This document shows, piece after piece, positions 2,871 to 59,910 of a stretch of DNA of 64,000 nucleotides. The notes beneath the pieces are model-generated. The model was not told the origin of the DNA. It saw nothing but the letters and a program-made list of their open reading frames with translations, and made no database searches. The translations under genes and the position numbers were made by a program. Position 1 is the stretch's first letter. Each line of letters begins with the position of its first letter. The stretch comes from a virus: positions 1 to 64,000 of the IMG/VR virus record IMGVR_UViG_3300042691_040362. One strand, 5' to 3'.

Positions 2871-5453
2871 ATGTATCAATCAATTTATTATGATTTTTCT
2901 GATTACACATATCATTTGAGGGACGACAAAACAGGTTGGACCCAATTTCAATTTCAACCTACATACTGGAAACGTATTGATGAATGGGACGAAGGTGCTC
3001 AACCTGTATTAACAGGAGGATATGCAGTGCCCACTAAAAAATATAGTAAGGACGATCCTAATTTATTAGAAAAGGATATCAATAAAGAATTACTTGTATT
3101 GAGGGAACTTTACTATAAATTTGATGATGTTGTTCCTTCATTCCACAATATAGTTTATCTCGATATCGAGATTGAAATGGGTGGAGCACTTACACCAGAA
3201 TATATTAAAGCAGCCCCAATGCCTCTTACCTCCATTGCTTTAATAGATATGACCACTAAAACAAAAATATGTTTTATTGTGGATAAAAGTAAGGAAATAC
3301 AAGAATACAATCAAGATGGTAAACATATTATTCCTTGTGGTTCAGAAAAAGAATTAATTAAACGATTCCTAGATAAATTTGAGGAACTAGACCCAACCAT
3401 TATTATAGGATGGAATAGTGCATATTTTGATATCCCTTACCTATACTTCAGACTTATAAAAATAGTAGGTGAAAATGAGGTAAAAAGAATGTCTCCAATT
3501 AGAAAAGTTGATTTCTCAGAATTTGCTGGTGAAATGCGGGTTAAAATTGGTGGTGTTAATCACTTAGATTATATGTTGCTTCATAAAAAATACATTATGA
3601 AGGAAGAACCCTCATATAAGTTAGGAGAAATTGGAACTAAATATGTTAAATTAGGTAAGATTGAATATGAAGGTAATTTAAATACGTTGTTTAAAAACGA
3701 TTTAAATGCGTTTATAGAGTACAATTTACGAGACGTTGAAATCATTGAAAAATTAGAAGAAAAGCTTAAATTCATTGAATTAACGGTAATGATTTCACAT
3801 ATCTGTAACATACCTTATGAAAGTATTTACTACAACACAGTAATGAATGAAGGTGCTATATTAAAGCACCTAAGACGTGAGGGTATTATTTCACCAAACA
3901 AACCTACTACTCACAATCCCATATTAAAAAATACTAAAGAAAGCTATGCTGGAGGATACTTACTAGAACCAATTCCAGGTCTATACTTTGACGTAATTGA
4001 TTTGGATTTTACTTCTCTATATCCTTCAATCATTAAATCATTGAATTTAGGTATTGAAACATTAGTGGGTCGCATTAAAGTAGATAACAATCCAACTTAT
4101 GAGCAAAACCATTCATTAGAAAAACTTAAGGAACGCGACCCCAATGAAGTCATTACTATTGAAAAGGTAAACAAAACCAATTACACACTTAGATCCGCAA
4201 CCATCAAAATAGGGGATCTAGTTAATTTAATTGAGAAAAACGAATACGCAGTTGCTGCCTCAGGAGCTATGTTTAGGACTGATGAAAAAAGTGTAGTTGC
4301 TAGTATTCTAGAGGGATGGTTCGAAAAACGAGAACACTATCGTGGTTTAAAGAAAACAGCAGGTAAAGCCGAAGATTGGGCAAACTATAAATTGTACGAT
4401 TTGTTCCAACATGCATTTAAAATCTTACAGAACGCAATGTACGGTACATTTGCTATTAATGGATGGAGGTACACTGATGGGCATTTAATTTGTAGTGCTG
4501 CTATTACAAACAGCGGACAACGTTTAACTCAAGAGTCAATTGAATTTGTAAACAACAAAATCAATACTGAAATAAAGCAAGAAAAACAAAACATATGCAT
4601 TTCAGATACAGATTCACTTTATATAGTACTAGGAGACCTATTAAACCATAGATATCCAAATTGTTCACCTGAGGAAAAAAACGACAAAATACTATTGTTG
4701 GCTCAGGAAATACAAAACGAATCTAATCACTATCTAGATGAATTAAGTAAACGTTTATTCAATACTGATTCCCACTACTTTCAATTAAAGCAAGAAGTAA
4801 TTTGTGCAGGTGTACTTACAACAGGTAAACGTAGATATGCAATGTATGTTACTAATAAGGAAGGTGTTGATGTAGAGGAATTGGATATGAAAGGACTTGA
4901 ATTAATGAAGTCCAATATGAATAAATTATTTAAGAAATTTGGAGAGGATTTTATTAAAAATGTATTGTTTGGTAAACCAAAATCTGAAATAGACAATGAT
5001 ATAGTTGATTTCTACAAAACACTAAAAACACTAGATCCTAAAAAATTAGGTAAACCAACAGGTGTAAAACAAATCCATAACTATCACATACCAGCAATGG
5101 CTGGAGACATGTTTAGTAGATTTAGAATTAAAGCACCAGCAAACACTAAAGCCGCTGTTCGCTATAACGATTTACTTAGGTTTAAAAAACTAGATAAAAA
5201 ATATGAATCAATTATTGAAGGCGATAAAATATTTATTGTTAACTTAAAACAAAATCCATACAATCTAGAAACAATTGGCCTACCAAATGCTCAAGTACCA
5301 TTAGAAATTGAGGAATTTGTTAAAACCTATATTGATGTTGAGGAAATATTTGATTCATTGTTAGCAAATAAATTAAAGTCATTGTATCTTGATCTTTCTT
5401 GGGATTTTCCTCCCTTGAATCCAAATGTAAACAAATTCTTTGCATTTAATTAG
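2871..5453 (+). CDS. Family B DNA polymerase (T4 gp43-like)
   Basis: This 860-aa protein carries all core motifs of a replicative family B polymerase. The 3'-5' exonuclease domain has Exo I DIE (residues 98-100), Exo II GWNSAYFD (180-187) and Exo III YNLRD (284-288). The polymerase domain has motif A DFTSLYPS (379-386), motif B KILQNAMYG (517-525) and motif C DTDS (579-582). All catalytic carboxylates are present, so it should be an active proofreading polymerase. Size and neighbours (clamp, clamp loader) match the T4 gp43 group. Its TAG stop is also the first triplet of the next promoter box. Confidence 0.97.
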   Translation: MYQSIYYDFSDYTYHLRDDKTGWTQFQFQPTYWKRIDEWDEGAQPVLTGGYAVPTKKYSKDDPNLLEKDINKELLVLRELYYKFDDVVPSFHNIVYLDIEIEMGGALTPEYIKAAPMPLTSIALIDMTTKTKICFIVDKSKEIQEYNQDGKHIIPCGSEKELIKRFLDKFEELDPTIIIGWNSAYFDIPYLYFRLIKIVGENEVKRMSPIRKVDFSEFAGEMRVKIGGVNHLDYMLLHKKYIMKEEPSYKLGEIGTKYVKLGKIEYEGNLNTLFKNDLNAFIEYNLRDVEIIEKLEEKLKFIELTVMISHICNIPYESIYYNTVMNEGAILKHLRREGIISPNKPTTHNPILKNTKESYAGGYLLEPIPGLYFDVIDLDFTSLYPSIIKSLNLGIETLVGRIKVDNNPTYEQNHSLEKLKERDPNEVITIEKVNKTNYTLRSATIKIGDLVNLIEKNEYAVAASGAMFRTDEKSVVASILEGWFEKREHYRGLKKTAGKAEDWANYKLYDLFQHAFKILQNAMYGTFAINGWRYTDGHLICSAAITNSGQRLTQESIEFVNNKINTEIKQEKQNICISDTDSLYIVLGDLLNHRYPNCSPEEKNDKILLLAQEIQNESNHYLDELSKRLFNTDSHYFQLKQEVICAGVLTTGKRRYAMYVTNKEGVDVEELDMKGLELMKSNMNKLFKKFGEDFIKNVLFGKPKSEIDNDIVDFYKTLKTLDPKKLGKPTGVKQIHNYHIPAMAGDMFSRFRIKAPANTKAAVRYNDLLRFKKLDKKYESIIEGDKIFIVNLKQNPYNLETIGLPNAQVPLEIEEFVKTYIDVEEIFDSLLANKLKSLYLDLSWDFPPLNPNVNKFFAFN

Positions 5454-12714: not shown

Positions 12715-14151
12715 ATGAATTCAAGTTTTGCTTATTTACCTCAGAAAGAGCGTAAAAAAATCCTATTAATTTGTGATGATATTCGAGTACATTCCGGAGT
12801 AGCTACTGTTGCTCGTGAAATGGTACTCAATACTTGTCAACATTTTAATTGGGTACAGGTTGCAGGAGCAATCAATCATCCTGAAAAAGGAAAAAAATTA
12901 GATATCTCTCAAGATACTAATACCAACACAGGTTTAACAGATGCTTCTGTTCAAATTTATCCTGTTGATGGATATGGAGATGCTAATCTAATTAGACAAC
13001 TCATTAAAATTGAAAAACCAGATGCTATCTTTTTAATTACAGATCCTAGATACTTCATGTGGTTGTTTCAAATTGAAAACGAGATTCGTCGTACGATGCC
13101 CATTGTATATCTAAATATTTGGGACGACTATCCAGCACCAATGTACAATCGTCCGTACTACGAAGCATGTGATGCTCTATTAGGTATTTCCAAACAAACA
13201 GTTAATATTAATAAATTAGTATTAGGCGATAAAGCAAAGGACAAGTTAATTGAGTACGTTCCTCATGGTTTAAATCATGATATTTTTAAACCAATTGATA
13301 ACACAGATTCTGAATTTACTGAATTTAAAAAACAATTATTTGGTGGTAGAGAATTTGATTTTGTATTGTTCTTTAATTCAAGAAATATTCGACGTAAACA
13401 AATTCCAGATACATTAGTGGCATATAAATACTTTATTGATTCACTATCAGAAGAAAAAGCAAAGAAATGTGCGTTTGTACTTCATACTCAAGTAGTTGAC
13501 GATAATGGAACAGATTTAGGAGCAGTATGTGAATTTTTATTTGATAACAATCCTAAATACAACATTATTTTTTCTCAAAACCCATTACCACCAAATAAAA
13601 TGAATTATTTGTATAATGCATCTGATGTCCAAATTCTATTAACATCAAATGAAGGTTGGGGTCTATCATTAACTGAAGCACTATTAACAGGAAAAATGAT
13701 TATCGCAAACGTAACTGGTGGAATGCAGGATCAAATGCGTTTTGTTAGAGATGGTAAATGGATGGAAGTAGATGCTGATTTCCCATCAAACCATAATGGT
13801 ACTTATAAAGAACATGGAGAATGGGCTTTACCTGTTTACCCAACTAACAGATCAATTCAAGGTTCCCCAATTACTCCTTATATTTGGGATGATAGATGTA
13901 CTTCAGAAGATGCAGCCGCTCGAATTAAAGAAGCATATGAAATGTCTAAAGAAGAACGTACACAACGTGGTTTAAAAGGTAGAGAATGGGCACTTGGAGA
14001 TGAAGCAGGATTCACAGGTGAGAAAATGGGACAAAGAATTATTCAAAATTTAGATACTTTGTTTTCAACTTGGAAACCTAGAAAAAATTATGAACTTATC
14101 AACACCAAAAATACAGAAAAAAGAGTTTTAAACCATAAATTAGTTTATTGA
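12715..14151 (+). CDS. Glycosyltransferase, GT4-like, 478 aa
   Basis: A GT-B type enzyme: the N-terminal domain begins KKILLICDDIRVHSGVATVAREMV (Gly-rich nucleotide-sugar domain opening), and the second domain has the GT4 E-x7-E signature EGWGLSLTE beginning at residue 313, preceded by NASDVQILLTS. It transfers sugar from a nucleotide donor; donor and acceptor cannot be read. I chose ATG 12715, since longer frames overlap the previous gene. First enzyme of the glycan locus. Confidence 0.88.
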   Translation: MNSSFAYLPQKERKKILLICDDIRVHSGVATVAREMVLNTCQHFNWVQVAGAINHPEKGKKLDISQDTNTNTGLTDASVQIYPVDGYGDANLIRQLIKIEKPDAIFLITDPRYFMWLFQIENEIRRTMPIVYLNIWDDYPAPMYNRPYYEACDALLGISKQTVNINKLVLGDKAKDKLIEYVPHGLNHDIFKPIDNTDSEFTEFKKQLFGGREFDFVLFFNSRNIRRKQIPDTLVAYKYFIDSLSEEKAKKCAFVLHTQVVDDNGTDLGAVCEFLFDNNPKYNIIFSQNPLPPNKMNYLYNASDVQILLTSNEGWGLSLTEALLTGKMIIANVTGGMQDQMRFVRDGKWMEVDADFPSNHNGTYKEHGEWALPVYPTNRSIQGSPITPYIWDDRCTSEDAAARIKEAYEMSKEERTQRGLKGREWALGDEAGFTGEKMGQRIIQNLDTLFSTWKPRKNYELINTKNTEKRVLNHKLVY

Positions 14152-38089: not shown

Positions 38090-38410
38090 ATGTTTAGAAT
38101 AGGACAAAAAGTAATATGTGTTGATGATAGGCTTGATCCTAATCGAAATTTACCTCCATTGGTTTTTCCTAAAAAAGGTACTACATACACTATACGAGGA
38201 ATATATGTCGCTAGAACCAACGAAACAGCGCTTTTACTTGAGGAAATAGTAAATCCATACCAAACACGTGATGGACAAGAGATAGGTTTTAAATCAAGTA
38301 GATTTCGTTCATTAGTGGAGGATGGTTTAATTGAGGAATTGTTGAGTAGAATAATTGATGAGGTAAAAGAGGAAATTTTAAAGGAAGAGTTAGCTGGGAT
38401 TACAGATTAA
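38090..38410 (+). CDS. SH3-like small protein, 106 aa
   Basis: RIGQKVICVDDRL ... FPKKGTTYTIRGIYVARTNETALLLEEIVN fits a small SH3-type barrel common in short phage proteins; the C-terminal helix LIEELLSRIIDEVKEEILKEEL is acidic. The promoter of the RNA region lies inside its last codons. Confidence 0.72.
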   Translation: MFRIGQKVICVDDRLDPNRNLPPLVFPKKGTTYTIRGIYVARTNETALLLEEIVNPYQTRDGQEIGFKSSRFRSLVEDGLIEELLSRIIDEVKEEILKEELAGITD

Positions 38411-38425
38411 ATTTTTATATATTTA
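38395..38425 (+). promoter_or_regulatory. Promoter-like element for the RNA region
   Basis: TGGGATTAC, 13 nt, ATATATTTA. The box overlaps the end of the gene at 38090; the following 600 nt hold no protein gene, so this element probably drives the structured RNA and tRNA-like array. Confidence 0.65.
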
Positions 38426-38439
38426 AGTATAAGAAAAAT

Positions 38440-38595
38440 AAAATAACCTGTACCCTTGAAAAACTCGTATTGTTCAGAGAGGAGTCATATTCGTATATGG
38501 TACACCCACTAAAGCAGGTGTCAGTATTTGGAGTACACTTTGATAGATAAGCAGGTTAGTTCCGATATAAAAGGGTAATAGAATAAGGAGCAAAT
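38440..38595 (+). ncRNA. Structured RNA candidate with pseudoknot
   Basis: No ORF of useful length. AACCTG (38445-38450) is complementary to CAGGTT (38552-38557), and the adjacent TACCCTT (38451-38457) to AAGGGTA (38571-38577); the two helices cross, so they would form a pseudoknot. Inside are hairpins CATAT-TCGT-ATATG (38486-38499) and ACACC/GGTGT (38502-38521). Located between a promoter and the first tRNA-like element. Comparison with large phage RNAs that sit by tRNA genes (ROOL, GOLLD) is sensible but not established. Confidence 0.6.
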
Positions 38596-38708
38596 AGTCA
38601 GGTGGCGGAATTGGTAGACGCTCATTCTTATGTATATGTTATAAACGCATAAGATGATAAAAATCGAGATAACAGGTAGGTTTACAGGTTCGAATCCTGT
38701 CCTGACTA
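38596..38708 (+). ncRNA. tRNA-like element A
   Basis: 113 nt. Outer arms are tRNA: acceptor AGTCAGG/CCTGACT-A, D-arm GGCGGAATTGGTAGACGC (leucine-type), T-arm ACAGG-TTCGAAT-CCTGT. The centre lacks a 5-bp/7-nt anticodon arm. Instead CATTCTTATG and CATAAGATG pair as a long stem with one bulge and a 15-nt loop. Not a canonical tRNA. Confidence 0.7.
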
Positions 38709-38934
38709 CAATGAGTAAGAGATACTCAGCAGACTTGTCAATGTCTCATTTAAACTTGATAGGGTATTAGACTGGACATCCTGAAACGCCAGTCTCGTGG
38801 GAATAAAGGGACAGCACAAACCCTCCCAGTAGTGTGATTTTAGAGTTCATGTGGTAAGACACTAATGGTTAGAGTTTTTAAGAAAACAAAACCGTTAAAA
38901 TCCACTCACCAGTAATCTCAAGGTGGGGAAACAT
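38709..38934 (+). ncRNA. Structured RNA candidate between tRNA-like elements A and B
   Basis: A gene-free stretch rich in local helices: AGACTGG/CCAGTCT (38769-38795), GGG/CCC enclosing AGGG/CCCT (38799-38827), GATTTTA/TAAAATC (38836-38902), and a CTCACC/GGTGGG hairpin near 38905-38927. A 19-codon reading frame begins at 38710 but looks incidental. With 38440-38595 and elements A and B it makes a nearly continuous 570-nt structured interval. Confidence 0.55.
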
Positions 38935-39011
38935 AGTCAGGAGTGTAATGAGGCATGGTGCCAAGTCCTTTTAAAGGTTACTTATTACAGGTTCGAATCC
39001 TGTCCTGACTA
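38935..39011 (+). ncRNA. tRNA-like element B
   Basis: 77 nt, the closest in size to a normal tRNA. Acceptor AGTCAGG/CCTGACT-A and T-arm as in element A; the D-arm region is different (AGTGTAATGAGGC). A 7-nt loop TTTTAAA closed by CC/GG could be an anticodon loop (anticodon UUA), but the rest of that stem is imperfect. Confidence 0.62.
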
Positions 39012-39026
39012 CTAAATAAATAAATA

Positions 39027-39884
39027 ATGAAATTTAAACTACTAAAATTAATCCCATTAAATGTATTTCTAAAATTTAGAATATGGGTAATATGTAAATT
39101 CTTACCTTATCTTTTAAACAACGAAAGAACACCTTATTCTAAAGATGGATATGAATTATCATTTAAAGATGATTTTGATGAATTTAATAAATCAATTTGG
39201 CAAGACATGCCATATTTTGGACATAGATTTCATCCAGGCAATATTGTAAATAATGGAACTGCACCTTATCAATATCATGATTCAAGTTGTATATCTGTAA
39301 AAGATTCTATACTTAGATTAGAATGTAATGATACACCTACCACTATTAACTATGTTGATTATAATGGAGATTATTATGGAACATTTAAAATACCATACCA
39401 AGTTGGTTGGATACAAACCATGCCTAATACATTTCAACAAAAATATGGTTATTTTGAAATTAGATCAAAATCTCCAAATAGTGGTGGAACTTGGCCAGCG
39501 TTTTGGTTAGCATCTACTGAGGCTTGGCCTCCAGAAATTGATATATTTGAAATTTATACTTCTGATGGTCAAACACGATCTACCTCAACTATTCATTGGG
39601 GAAAAGATCCAAAACATCCAATGACTGGATTTGGTCATACAACACTACCGTTAAATTCTGATTTCTCAGTGTTTGGATGTGATTGGAATGAAAAAAATAT
39701 TAAAATATATTATAACGGTTGGTTAGTTAGAGTTTTTCCTACACCAAATGATTTTAAATATGAAATGAATATTATTATTAACAATGGTGTTCAAACTGAT
39801 GAAACAGGTTTAAATAGAGAAAGCATAATATCACCAAATTATTTTGAAGTAGATTATGTAAAAGTTTGGAAAAAAATAAAATAG
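39027..39884 (+). CDS. GH16 family glycoside hydrolase (beta-glucanase-like)
   Basis: 285 aa. GYFEIRSKSPNSGGTWPAFWLASTEAWPPEIDIFEIY contains the GH16 catalytic motif E-I-D-I-F-E (nucleophile E170, acid/base E175); LSFKDDFDEFNKSIWQ opens the domain and HWGKDPKHPMTGFGH and YYNGWLVR follow. A hydrophobic N-terminal segment (residues 9-30) may be a signal or anchor. It should cleave beta-1,3/1,4-glucan-type polysaccharide, possibly host capsule. It sits between tRNA-like elements B and C, and its TAG stop uses the first two bases of element C. Confidence 0.9.
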   Translation: MKFKLLKLIPLNVFLKFRIWVICKFLPYLLNNERTPYSKDGYELSFKDDFDEFNKSIWQDMPYFGHRFHPGNIVNNGTAPYQYHDSSCISVKDSILRLECNDTPTTINYVDYNGDYYGTFKIPYQVGWIQTMPNTFQQKYGYFEIRSKSPNSGGTWPAFWLASTEAWPPEIDIFEIYTSDGQTRSTSTIHWGKDPKHPMTGFGHTTLPLNSDFSVFGCDWNEKNIKIYYNGWLVRVFPTPNDFKYEMNIIINNGVQTDETGLNRESIISPNYFEVDYVKVWKKIK

Positions 39885-39967
39885 TCAGGTGTCTGAATTG
39901 GCTAAGTACCCTGAGCCCATCTTAGTAATGGGTAGGGGAGATACAGGTTCGAATCCTGTCCTGACTA
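39883..39967 (+). ncRNA. tRNA-like element C
   Basis: 85 nt. Same acceptor and T-arm; D-arm region TGTCTGAATTGGCTAAG. The centre has a perfect 17-nt arm CCCAT-CTTAGTA-ATGGG (would-be anticodon UAG, Leu CUA) but it is lifted by an extra CCCT/AGGG helix with a GAG/T internal loop. So the anticodon arm is elongated compared with a tRNA. Confidence 0.66.
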
Positions 39968-39984: not shown

Positions 39985-40200
39985 ATGAAAGGTGCAATGA
40001 CATTAAAACATCGTAAAAATATTGTAAGAGAAGTGAAATCTCGTATCAGTAAAGAGATTAAGGATTACAACGATAAAGAAGTTGGACAACAAGAATCTAT
40101 TCTTGATGAATATATTGAAAAAGTATGTGTTGAAAAGGGATGGGAATTAGTTCATTTTTATTGTGAAGAAGGAAAAATTTTAGATAAGATATTAAAATAG
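39985..40200 (+). CDS. Hypothetical basic protein, 71 aa
   Basis: ATG at 39985 chosen: upstream codons of the frame lie in tRNA-like element C. Helical (LKHRKNIVREVKSRISKEIKDYNDKEVG ... EKVCVEKGWELVHFYCEEGKILDKILK). Its TAG stop includes the first two bases of element D. Unknown. Confidence 0.68.
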   Translation: MKGAMTLKHRKNIVREVKSRISKEIKDYNDKEVGQQESILDEYIEKVCVEKGWELVHFYCEEGKILDKILK

Positions 40201-40297
40201 TCAGGTGGCGGAATTGGTAGACGCAGTTAGTTATAAGCACCAATAAGACTTGTAACAACGTACCGATAGTATGCAGGTTCGAATCCTGTCCTGACTT
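40199..40297 (+). ncRNA. tRNA-like element D
   Basis: 99 nt. Acceptor and leucine-type D-arm as in A; T-arm GCAGG-TTCGAAT-CCTGT; discriminator T. The centre can fold as AGT/ACT, an internal TAG/G loop, TTAT/ATAA and an 8-nt loop, again an elongated non-canonical arm. Confidence 0.68.
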
Positions 40298-40551: not shown

Positions 40552-40659
40552 AGTCAGGTGGCGAAATGGTAGACGCTAGAAAGAATGTAAAACAATTGAG
40601 TAATCTCTGCCAGTATCATTCACAGGGGTTACATACAGGTTCGAATCCTGTCCTGACTA
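40552..40659 (+). ncRNA. tRNA-like element E
   Basis: 108 nt. Acceptor, T-arm and leucine-type D-arm (GGCGAAATGGTAGACGC) conserved. In the centre ATGTAA can pair with TTACAT over a long loop, or GAATG with CATTC; no canonical anticodon arm. Confidence 0.67.
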
Positions 40660-58677: not shown

Positions 58678-58902
58678 ATGAAAACAGATGTTAATTTAGA
58701 TATGTACAGAAACGTTGATATAATTTCAGCGGAACTAAAAATAGCTATTGATGCTCTTGAACAAGATGTTGATGATTTCTGTTCCAATTTTGTTAAAACA
58801 CAAGAGGACTTGCAACTAGTTTCATTGTTCCAGTCCATGTTGAATGATTTATACAATGATTTGGAAAACATTAACAACATAAGAGGTGTATTATACAACT
58901 AG
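58678..58902 (+). CDS. Helical protein, paralogue of 57178, 74 aa
   Basis: MKTDVNLDMYRNVDIISAELKIAIDALEQDVDDFCSNFVKTQEDLQ ... MLNDLYNDLENINNIRGVLYN; same length and layout as 57178. Stop TAG begins the next box. Confidence 0.72.
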   Translation: MKTDVNLDMYRNVDIISAELKIAIDALEQDVDDFCSNFVKTQEDLQLVSLFQSMLNDLYNDLENINNIRGVLYN

Positions 58903-58930
58903 GAATACAAAAAATACGTTCGTATATTTA
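58900..58930 (+). promoter_or_regulatory. Promoter-like element
   Basis: TAGGAATAC, 13 nt, GTATATTTA; drives the gene-poor RNA region beginning with tRNA-like element F. Confidence 0.66.
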
Positions 58931-58979
58931 TCTCATAAGAAAAGCATTTAAAAACGTTTAATTAATTGATTAAGCATAT

Positions 58980-59049
58980 AGTCAGGTGGCGGAATGGATG
59001 GGCAACGTCAACTAATTAATAGATACAGGTTCGAATCCTGTCCTGACTA
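58980..59049 (+). ncRNA. tRNA-like element F
   Basis: 70 nt. Same acceptor AGTCAGG/CCTGACT-A and T-arm ACAGG-TTCGAAT-CCTGT as elements A-E, and the start of the D-arm TGGCGGAA. Only about 25 nt lie between D- and T-arms, too few for a normal anticodon arm plus variable loop (a CTA/TAG mini-hairpin is possible). Confidence 0.66.
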
Positions 59050-59053
59050 CCAA

Positions 59054-59203
59054 ATGTTGGCTGAAAAGTTAGGCTTTTGTTTCTATATAGGGAAGATGAC
59101 TAAGAAACAGGAACTAGAGTCTATTAGAGGTACAATCATCAGTATATCTCTTACAACATTATATAGTTCTTTGCATTTTTACTTACCTTCACCATATGTA
59201 TAA
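59054..59203 (+). CDS. Possible small protein, 49 aa
   Basis: An ATG 4 nt after tRNA-like element F opens a 49-codon frame (MLAEKLGFCFYIGKMTKKQELESIRGTIISISLTTLYSSLHFYLPSPYV). The gene-right-after-element spacing resembles the 38-41 kb array. Weak codon evidence; it may be incidental to a structured RNA. Confidence 0.35.
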   Translation: MLAEKLGFCFYIGKMTKKQELESIRGTIISISLTTLYSSLHFYLPSPYV

Positions 59204-59502
59204 TGGAACACAAAAGGGATCCTCACAGTAGGACAACGAGAAGTGAATGCTAGTCAGGACTGCTCTCAACCAAGTAGTGCTCAAAAACGCGCTCTTTACA
59301 CATATTAGTTACAACAAAAGCATTAATGCACCCGGAGTAATATACCGGTTTTTAAATTTTGACAAAAATGTTCCCGCCTCTAGTCGACCCAATTAGATGA
59401 GCAAATAACATGAGTTAATGATACAGCAAAACAATGTGAGTTAAATTTATACATAAAGCTGGTTGATAATTAGGTTGACTGGCTACCTTACTGTTCAAAT
59501 AC
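59204..59502 (+). ncRNA. Gene-free interval with long-range helix
   Basis: No credible gene. AGTCGACCCAATTA (near 59382) and TAATTAGGTTGACT (near 59467) pair over 14 positions with one mismatch and one wobble, closing about 70 nt. Another AATGTTG/CAACATT pairing spans the region just upstream. It could be a structured RNA following element F; alternatively an unannotated regulatory region. Confidence 0.45.
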
Positions 59503-59688: not shown

Positions 59689-59700
59689 TTAAATAAGTAA

Positions 59701-59907
59701 CCGGCCCCAGTAACGGGGGATAAGTTAAAGTGAAAAGGACGGTTCAAACAGGGGAGCCATTTAGGGACAAGAGGATGAAATAAGCCCGCCCTCGGCTCAC
59801 CCGATTTAAAGGTGGACATAATAGCCACCACGCGAAGGCCGGCCAACTCATAGAGTCGTCGAGCCACTTAAACCATGGAGGTCCACAACGTTGGGCCTCC
59901 ATTTATT
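59701..59907 (+). ncRNA. GC-rich structured RNA candidate
   Basis: About 207 nt with far higher GC than its surroundings, placed between a promoter and a terminator with no plausible ORF on the + strand. CCGGCC (59701-59706) pairs with GGCCGG (59837-59842) as closing helix. Within it: CCCC-AGTAAC-GGGG, GGTTC/GAGCC, and GGTGG/CCACC hairpins; after it ACTC-ATA-GAGT. I do not recognise the family; a riboswitch, ribozyme or regulatory RNA are all possible. Confidence 0.65.
59875..59907 (+). terminator. Terminator of the GC-rich RNA
   Basis: 11-bp stem ATGGAGGTCCA/TGGGCCTCCAT (one wobble), loop CAACGT, then TTATTT. Confidence 0.8.
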
Positions 59908-59910
59908 TAT

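Follow-up and report, generated by a model that had tools for sequence, protein, structure and literature searches.

Related RNA systems

GOLLD and ROOL are large, structured and pseudoknotted phage RNAs of unknown function that lie near tRNA islands (PMC12286853). GOLLD is often over 800 nt long, and its linker region can hold a tRNA (PMC12286853). The locus described here encodes two RNAs, PK and MID, which resemble them in being structured, pseudoknotted and phage-encoded near tRNA genes. Unlike GOLLD and ROOL, MID is about 215 nt long and PK about 75–150 nt, tRNA-type borders bracket them exactly, and neither matches an Rfam 15 family. A cmscan of positions 38380–39060 at E values up to 10 listed only tRNA and chance-level matches, and neither ROOL nor GOLLD appeared there or, at the gathering score, in 17 related loci; the first-pass annotation had likewise seen no match by eye, and the setting beside tRNA genes that it compared with theirs is indeed present.

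In mitochondrial transcripts, tRNAs lying between genes mark the places where RNase P and RNase Z cut, and the t-elements of plant mitochondria act likewise. The tRNA-like modules of this locus (TLSs) are comparable, as tRNA or tRNA-like elements between genes that are proposed to be signals for these enzymes. They differ in their phage setting, in an acceptor/T-arm sequence common to many phages, in a variable insert replacing the anticodon arm, and in the noncoding RNAs that lie between modules. In the engineered tRNA scaffold, the anticodon arm is replaced by an RNA of interest; a TLS is also a tRNA body with foreign RNA in that place, whereas TLSs are natural, recurrent and present several to a phage. 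The tRNA cluster of phage T4 includes the stable non-tRNA RNAs C and D, and the likeness to the stable RNAs proposed here is one of setting.

A TLS also shares with tmRNA (RF00023) a tRNA-like acceptor and T-arm domain, the remaining tRNA being replaced. Unlike tmRNA, TLSs are 53–190 nt long and usually keep the D arm, and neither ARAGORN nor Rfam RF00023 calls a tmRNA in the window, that is, in the whole 64,000-nt stretch analysed. Some carrier phages have a separate true tmRNA (loci L058, L071 and L019). At L019 (7609–8193, minus strand), a match to a group I intron (RF00028, 97.8 bits) directly adjoins the Rfam match of the phage tmRNA, which the intron seems to split close to the tmRNA 3' end. 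The window itself holds no RF00028 match.

PK and MID are two pseudoknotted RNAs not previously described, as far as a library of open-licence papers extends, where no earlier account of PK, MID or TLS was found. Among 50,697 sequenced phage records, the MID query found nothing and PK queries detected only Leptolyngbya phage Lbo-JY46; this near-absence would explain why the families have been missed.

Genomic setting and overall architecture

The window belongs to a virus record of 104,954 bases, whose genes include a family-B DNA polymerase, GroEL and glycosyltransferases. One of the encoded proteins carries a type-B T9SS sorting domain (TIGR04131), which points to a host that is probably a member of the Bacteroidota.

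The interval analysed, 38440–39011, is best read as four conserved, separately folded RNAs in tandem: PK, TLS1, MID and TLS2. The relevant features are as follows.

38397–38425, plus strand: phage-type promoter motif, GGATTACA-N11-TATATATTTA
38445–38591, plus strand: PK RNA, with 75 distinct relatives (model R1 match at 38441–38597, 79.1 bits)
38445–38450 (AACCTG) with 38552–38557 (CAGGTT), plus strand: PK helix H1
38451–38457 (TACCCTT) with 38571–38577 (AAGGGTA), plus strand: PK helix H2, crossing H1
38559–38563 with 38587–38591, plus strand: PK helix H3, additional to the two helices first noticed
about 38468–38545, plus strand: inserted domain of PK
38596–38708, plus strand: TLS1, with acceptor, D arm and T arm, and a long hairpin insert in place of the anticodon arm (RF00005, 38.7 bits)
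38712–38928, plus strand: MID RNA, pseudoknot-rich and noncoding (52-sequence alignment A1; tRNA/TLS bracketing)
38935–39011, plus strand: TLS2 (RF00005, 26.4 bits, below the gathering score of 29; ARAGORN call tRNA-Leu(taa))
39883–39967, plus strand: TLS3, at the 3' end of the GH16 gene, whose stop codon (39882–39884) overlaps its first bases
40199–40297, plus strand: TLS4, overlapping the stop codon of the preceding ORF, which ends at 40200 (RF00005, 40.2 bits)
40552–40659, plus strand: TLS5
58980–59049, plus strand: TLS6, with its own promoter motif upstream at 58902 (RF00005, 36.8 bits)

The first-pass annotation had placed a promoter ahead of an interval without a protein gene. Both statements hold: ORFs within the interval reach only 30–39 aa, and the promoter-like motif occurs 46 times on the plus strand of the 104,954-base contig and 3 times on the minus strand, with 2 copies in each of two controls. 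In the form GGATTACA-N11-TGTATATTTA, the 11-base spacer is nearly invariant across the 46 copies. The copies are densest at 49.5–62 kb, mostly shortly upstream of an ATG, and the motif resembles a class of promoters specific to the phage.

Taken as a whole, the interval does not fold with unusual energy (z −0.92; 20 of 100 shuffles do equally well), so the evidence that the interval is structured beyond chance is comparative and not energetic. It comes from covariation in PK and MID and from bracketing by tRNAs and TLSs, which bears out the initial impression of real structure. Overall, what was first observed is confirmed, while its interpretation is partly supported.

Two other regions of the window show related arrangements. 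Positions 59690–59910 are GC-rich and noncoding, with a promoter motif upstream (59660) and a 3' hairpin followed by T-rich sequence; the region looks like a further structured RNA, and Rfam gave no match above chance there. At 58930–59500, the promoter motif at 58902 is followed by TLS6 and about 440 bases read as lacking an obvious gene, possibly another chain of RNAs.

PK RNA

Positions 38461–38555 match Leptolyngbya phage Lbo-JY46 (blastn, 75.8%, E 6e-8), at a place where no feature is annotated. A pattern built from both sequences occurs in at least 119 IMG/VR stretches; as for all counts from collection scans, this is a lower bound. A check for the 3' partner was passed by 98 loci (75 distinct) and failed by about 20 of 121 pattern matches, most of which resembled coding sequence and a few of which are true PKs missed by the search expression. 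A search of 200 further loci with the PK model added only a few weak, divergent candidates.

The elements of PK follow a constant order: H1 5' strand, H2 5' strand, AAACTCG, an insert of variable length, H1 3' strand, H3 5' strand, GAAATAA, H2 3' strand, AGAGAATAA and H3 3' strand. The crossing of AACCTG/CAGGTT with TACCCTT/AAGGGTA, proposed from the window sequence as a pseudoknot, is kept in the 75 distinct relatives with covariation at the outer pair of H1, in H3 and, weakly, in H2. The search seed fixed CCTGTAYCCTTG and AACTCG, and only the remaining positions count as independent evidence. At the first H1 position beyond the seed, 71 of 75 relatives pair, using several base combinations (42.9 when shuffled, maximum 52). 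H3 consists of many differing sequences that pair over a mean of 4.72 bp, against 3.90 in shuffles (at most 4.13). H2 changes singly with its pairing kept, and two weak model matches (E 0.18 and 0.88), whose alignments were read by eye, carry a different H2 base combination that still pairs. The PK 3' end often lies 0–1 nt ahead of a tRNA or TLS.

Domains are exchanged among these RNAs, as the arrangement at locus L136 indicates. There, the inserted domain of the window's PK (GTGTCATATTC...ACTAAAGC...GGAGTAC) sits within a different RNA (minus strand, about 4090–4400 in reverse-strand coordinates), and a PK core lacking that domain lies about 200 bases downstream. A bacterial PK was also considered: the pattern matched twice in 395 genomes from the phylum of a TLS-carrying Chitinophagaceae MAG, and these matches, whose spacers lack the PK core, were judged to be chance.

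MID RNA

MID contains several pseudoknots. In the window, positions 38711–38934 are 97% identical to 1985–2207 of locus L058, which lie precisely between tRNA-Thr and tRNA-Ile. Used as a pattern, the first MID hairpin is found in at least 119 stretches, of which 109 also have the 3' motif.

A structure of 55 pairs was assigned by hand on alignment A1 (52 sequences). Seven of its helices are local, some of them extended inward; three more are pseudoknot helices, and the loops of the first and last hairpins make a kissing contact (AGAGA/TCTC). Changes on both sides affect 36 of the 55 pairs, and 85.4% of cells are paired, compared with 75.0 after shuffling. The covariation score reaches 0.298; shuffling gives 0.136, and sliding the structure by 1–3 columns gives at most 0.120. 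The comparison with the slid versions is tilted towards the real structure, which was derived from the very sequences tested. Counts for the pseudoknots are probably low, as MAFFT misplaces some sequences there. The first helix and the kissing contact barely vary and are based on conservation and complementarity alone. RNAalifold returned 17 pairs on this alignment and none of the pseudoknots; the hand assignment was followed. In loci L155 and L158, the same helix loop of MID is enlarged by a common hairpin-like insert of about 50 nt.

Bracketing by tRNAs and TLSs

Among 77 distinct MIDs with enough flanking sequence, 36 have a tRNA and 30 a TLS as their neighbour upstream; downstream, the corresponding figures are 37 and 27. 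Because either type is found at the junctions of MID and PK, tRNA and TLS are interchangeable at these borders. In all but one of the 55 measured cases (54 of 55), MID starts exactly 4 nt after the preceding acceptor stem, of tRNA or TLS, and 6 nt separate the MID end from the next acceptor in 38 of 55 located cases. The fixed 4-nt spacing suggests that the ends of MID coincide with tRNA-processing sites, and the mature ends in the window are expected at 38709 and 38934. Both these spacings and the overlaps of TLSs with stop codons place the modules directly at the borders of the flanking RNAs.

tRNA-like modules

The window holds six copies of ACAGGTTCGAATCCTGTCCTGACT with 0–1 mismatch, where none is expected. 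A 23-mer within it occurs in at least 120 IMG/VR stretches and in only 6 contigs (four labelled Bacteroidota) among 84,980 bacterial and archaeal genomes. The two modules of the interval first noticed as tRNA-like both match RF00005. Their likeness to tRNA thus stands; the description of them as tRNA-like ends does not, since they are whole modules without an anticodon arm, of which the window has six.

TLSs have the acceptor stem, the T arm and usually the D arm of a decoding tRNA. A complementary acceptor strand lies within 160 nt upstream in 139 of 143 TLSs, against 17 in a control stretch whose count is itself raised by neighbouring modules, and a D arm with GG loop is present in 108 of 127 (48 when shuffled). 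The latter count is the fairer test of the D arm, as D-stem pairing was required by the TLS caller; the T arm was fixed by the search seed. D arms are mostly of the Leu type (TGGCGGAATTGGTAGACGC), and variants retain pairing. The preceding base is T in 132 of 162 TLSs, the discriminator is A in 152, and the next base is C in 158; the same N-C-A trailer follows the true tRNAs of these phages.

The canonical anticodon arm (5-bp stem, 7-nt loop, U33) is found in just 4 of 159 TLSs, with 1.07 expected by shuffling. Between the D and T arms lies an insert of 6–139 nt, apart from a 208-nt outlier that spans two modules. Since a variable insert takes the place of the anticodon arm, decoding by TLSs is, as far as sequence can tell, impossible. 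ARAGORN called only one of the six window TLSs, TLS2 as tRNA-Leu(taa), and this label should be dropped because the supposed anticodon loop differs in length and sequence among relatives.

Ten TLSs overlap a stop codon and many start at or just behind one. Integron-like cassettes (ORF–TLS–ORF–TLS, with conserved ends and a variable middle) were therefore considered and set aside, as conservation of the D arm, T arm and discriminator points to recognition as a tRNA-like RNA. Recombination between identical TLS ends may still occur. At locus L050 (minus strand, 13030–13101), a module called tRNA-Lys(ttt) combines the TLS acceptor AGTCAGG/CCTGACT with a proper anticodon arm, a lead to the origin of the TLS sequence.

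A model of transcript punctuation and its alternatives

The analysis establishes conserved and covarying modules, their fixed spacing, and junctions at which tRNA and TLS take each other's place. We favour, with some confidence, a model in which tRNAs and anticodon-less TLSs punctuate phage transcripts, and RNase P and the 3' tRNA nuclease release PK and MID. Transcription from the promoter at 38397–38425 would start one polycistronic transcript running PK–TLS1–MID–TLS2–GH16 mRNA–TLS3 and onward. TLSs retain the parts recognised by the two enzymes (acceptor stem, T arm and usually a D arm with a GG loop). RNase P would cleave ahead of each TLS or tRNA, the 3' tRNA nuclease would cleave after the discriminator base, and both are probably the cell's ordinary tRNA-processing enzymes. 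The RNAs between modules (PK, MID and mRNAs) would thereby be freed with defined ends. Two stable phage RNAs, each in single copy, would result: MID, with its pseudoknots and terminal-hairpin kissing, and PK, built of three interlocked helices. For MID, a trans-acting role in infection is in our view likelier than cis-regulation. The model fits the dispensable anticodon, the TLS starts at or behind stop codons, and the replacement of tRNAs by TLSs at the borders of MID and PK. Against it, the nearest ORF by mechanical call lies on the other strand for about a quarter of TLSs, so not all can punctuate mRNAs, and PK also precedes ORFs without a tRNA or TLS nearby. Conservation with compensatory changes is seen in several insert families, which is more than pure cutting signals would need and suggests that some TLSs serve a further purpose themselves.

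Another view is that TLSs are themselves the products, natural tRNA scaffolds that provide processing and nuclease protection for a small regulatory or decoy RNA, with several per phage carrying different inserts. The inserts do fold better on average than their shuffled versions (mean z −0.72 ± 0.08, n = 143), some insert families turn up in more than one phage with compensatory changes, and 18 of 29 carrier records have TLS motifs, at 1–11 per record. Most inserts, however, occur just once in the sample (the 159 yield only 6 clusters of three or more), and a 53-nt TLS has practically none. We consider this view rather unlikely. Far less credible is the idea that TLSs are just tRNA genes whose anticodon arm holds an intron or that have decayed to pseudogenes. 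The generic tRNA model matches them and the L050 module has the same acceptor with a tRNA-Lys-like anticodon arm, but in the loci scanned the inserts match no known intron family. Decay would affect the whole gene, whereas the acceptor, D and T arms are nearly constant and only the anticodon region varies; D stems moreover vary in compensating pairs, subject to the pairing required by the caller.

For PK, a cis-acting leader in place of a released RNA is a serious contender, although we lean against it. Such a leader could protect the mRNA 5' end, mediate antitermination or sense a ligand, and PK does lie about 20 nt behind the promoter in the window and upstream of same-strand ORFs, tRNAs or TLSs in other phages. 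Yet there is one PK per record in 12 of 12 carrier records (MID is single in 18 of 18; records of 79–465 kb), the kind of downstream gene is not constant, and in several phages PK stands within an array of tRNAs that flank it left and right. The first-pass annotation had left open one large ornate RNA or a chain of RNAs, and the chain prevails. A single RNA of about 570 nt would suit the contiguity of the parts and a minimum-energy fold that pairs the acceptor and T arms of the two TLSs with each other; this pairing is explained by TLS1 and TLS2 being near-identical copies, and the interval's unexceptional folding energy also speaks against a single RNA. The modules recur in many uncultivated phages, and elsewhere they stand apart or reordered: MID lies between two ordinary tRNAs in L058, PK directly follows MID in L158, and 93 of 98 PK loci have no MID as far as the fetched DNA extends. 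A single RNA is thus highly improbable. The sample is biased by the search seeds, and shuffles overstate significance as the sequences are related.

Within the punctuation model, it may be proposed, tentatively and with some doubt, that the anticodon-less modules form a natural tRNA scaffold that would at once cut polycistronic transcripts, carry changing small-RNA payloads, and release PK and MID with new functions in infection.

Significance

The three RNA families are recurrent, each in at least about 100 uncultivated phage contigs. Two have no Rfam 15 counterpart and the third is matched weakly and generically as tRNA, and together they would enlarge the small set of large structured phage RNAs represented by GOLLD and ROOL. 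The fixed borders allow mature ends and cleavage sites to be predicted to the nucleotide, which makes the model directly testable. If punctuation holds true, phages have turned tRNAs into general cutting signals, and such signals are misnamed or missed by ordinary tRNA finders.
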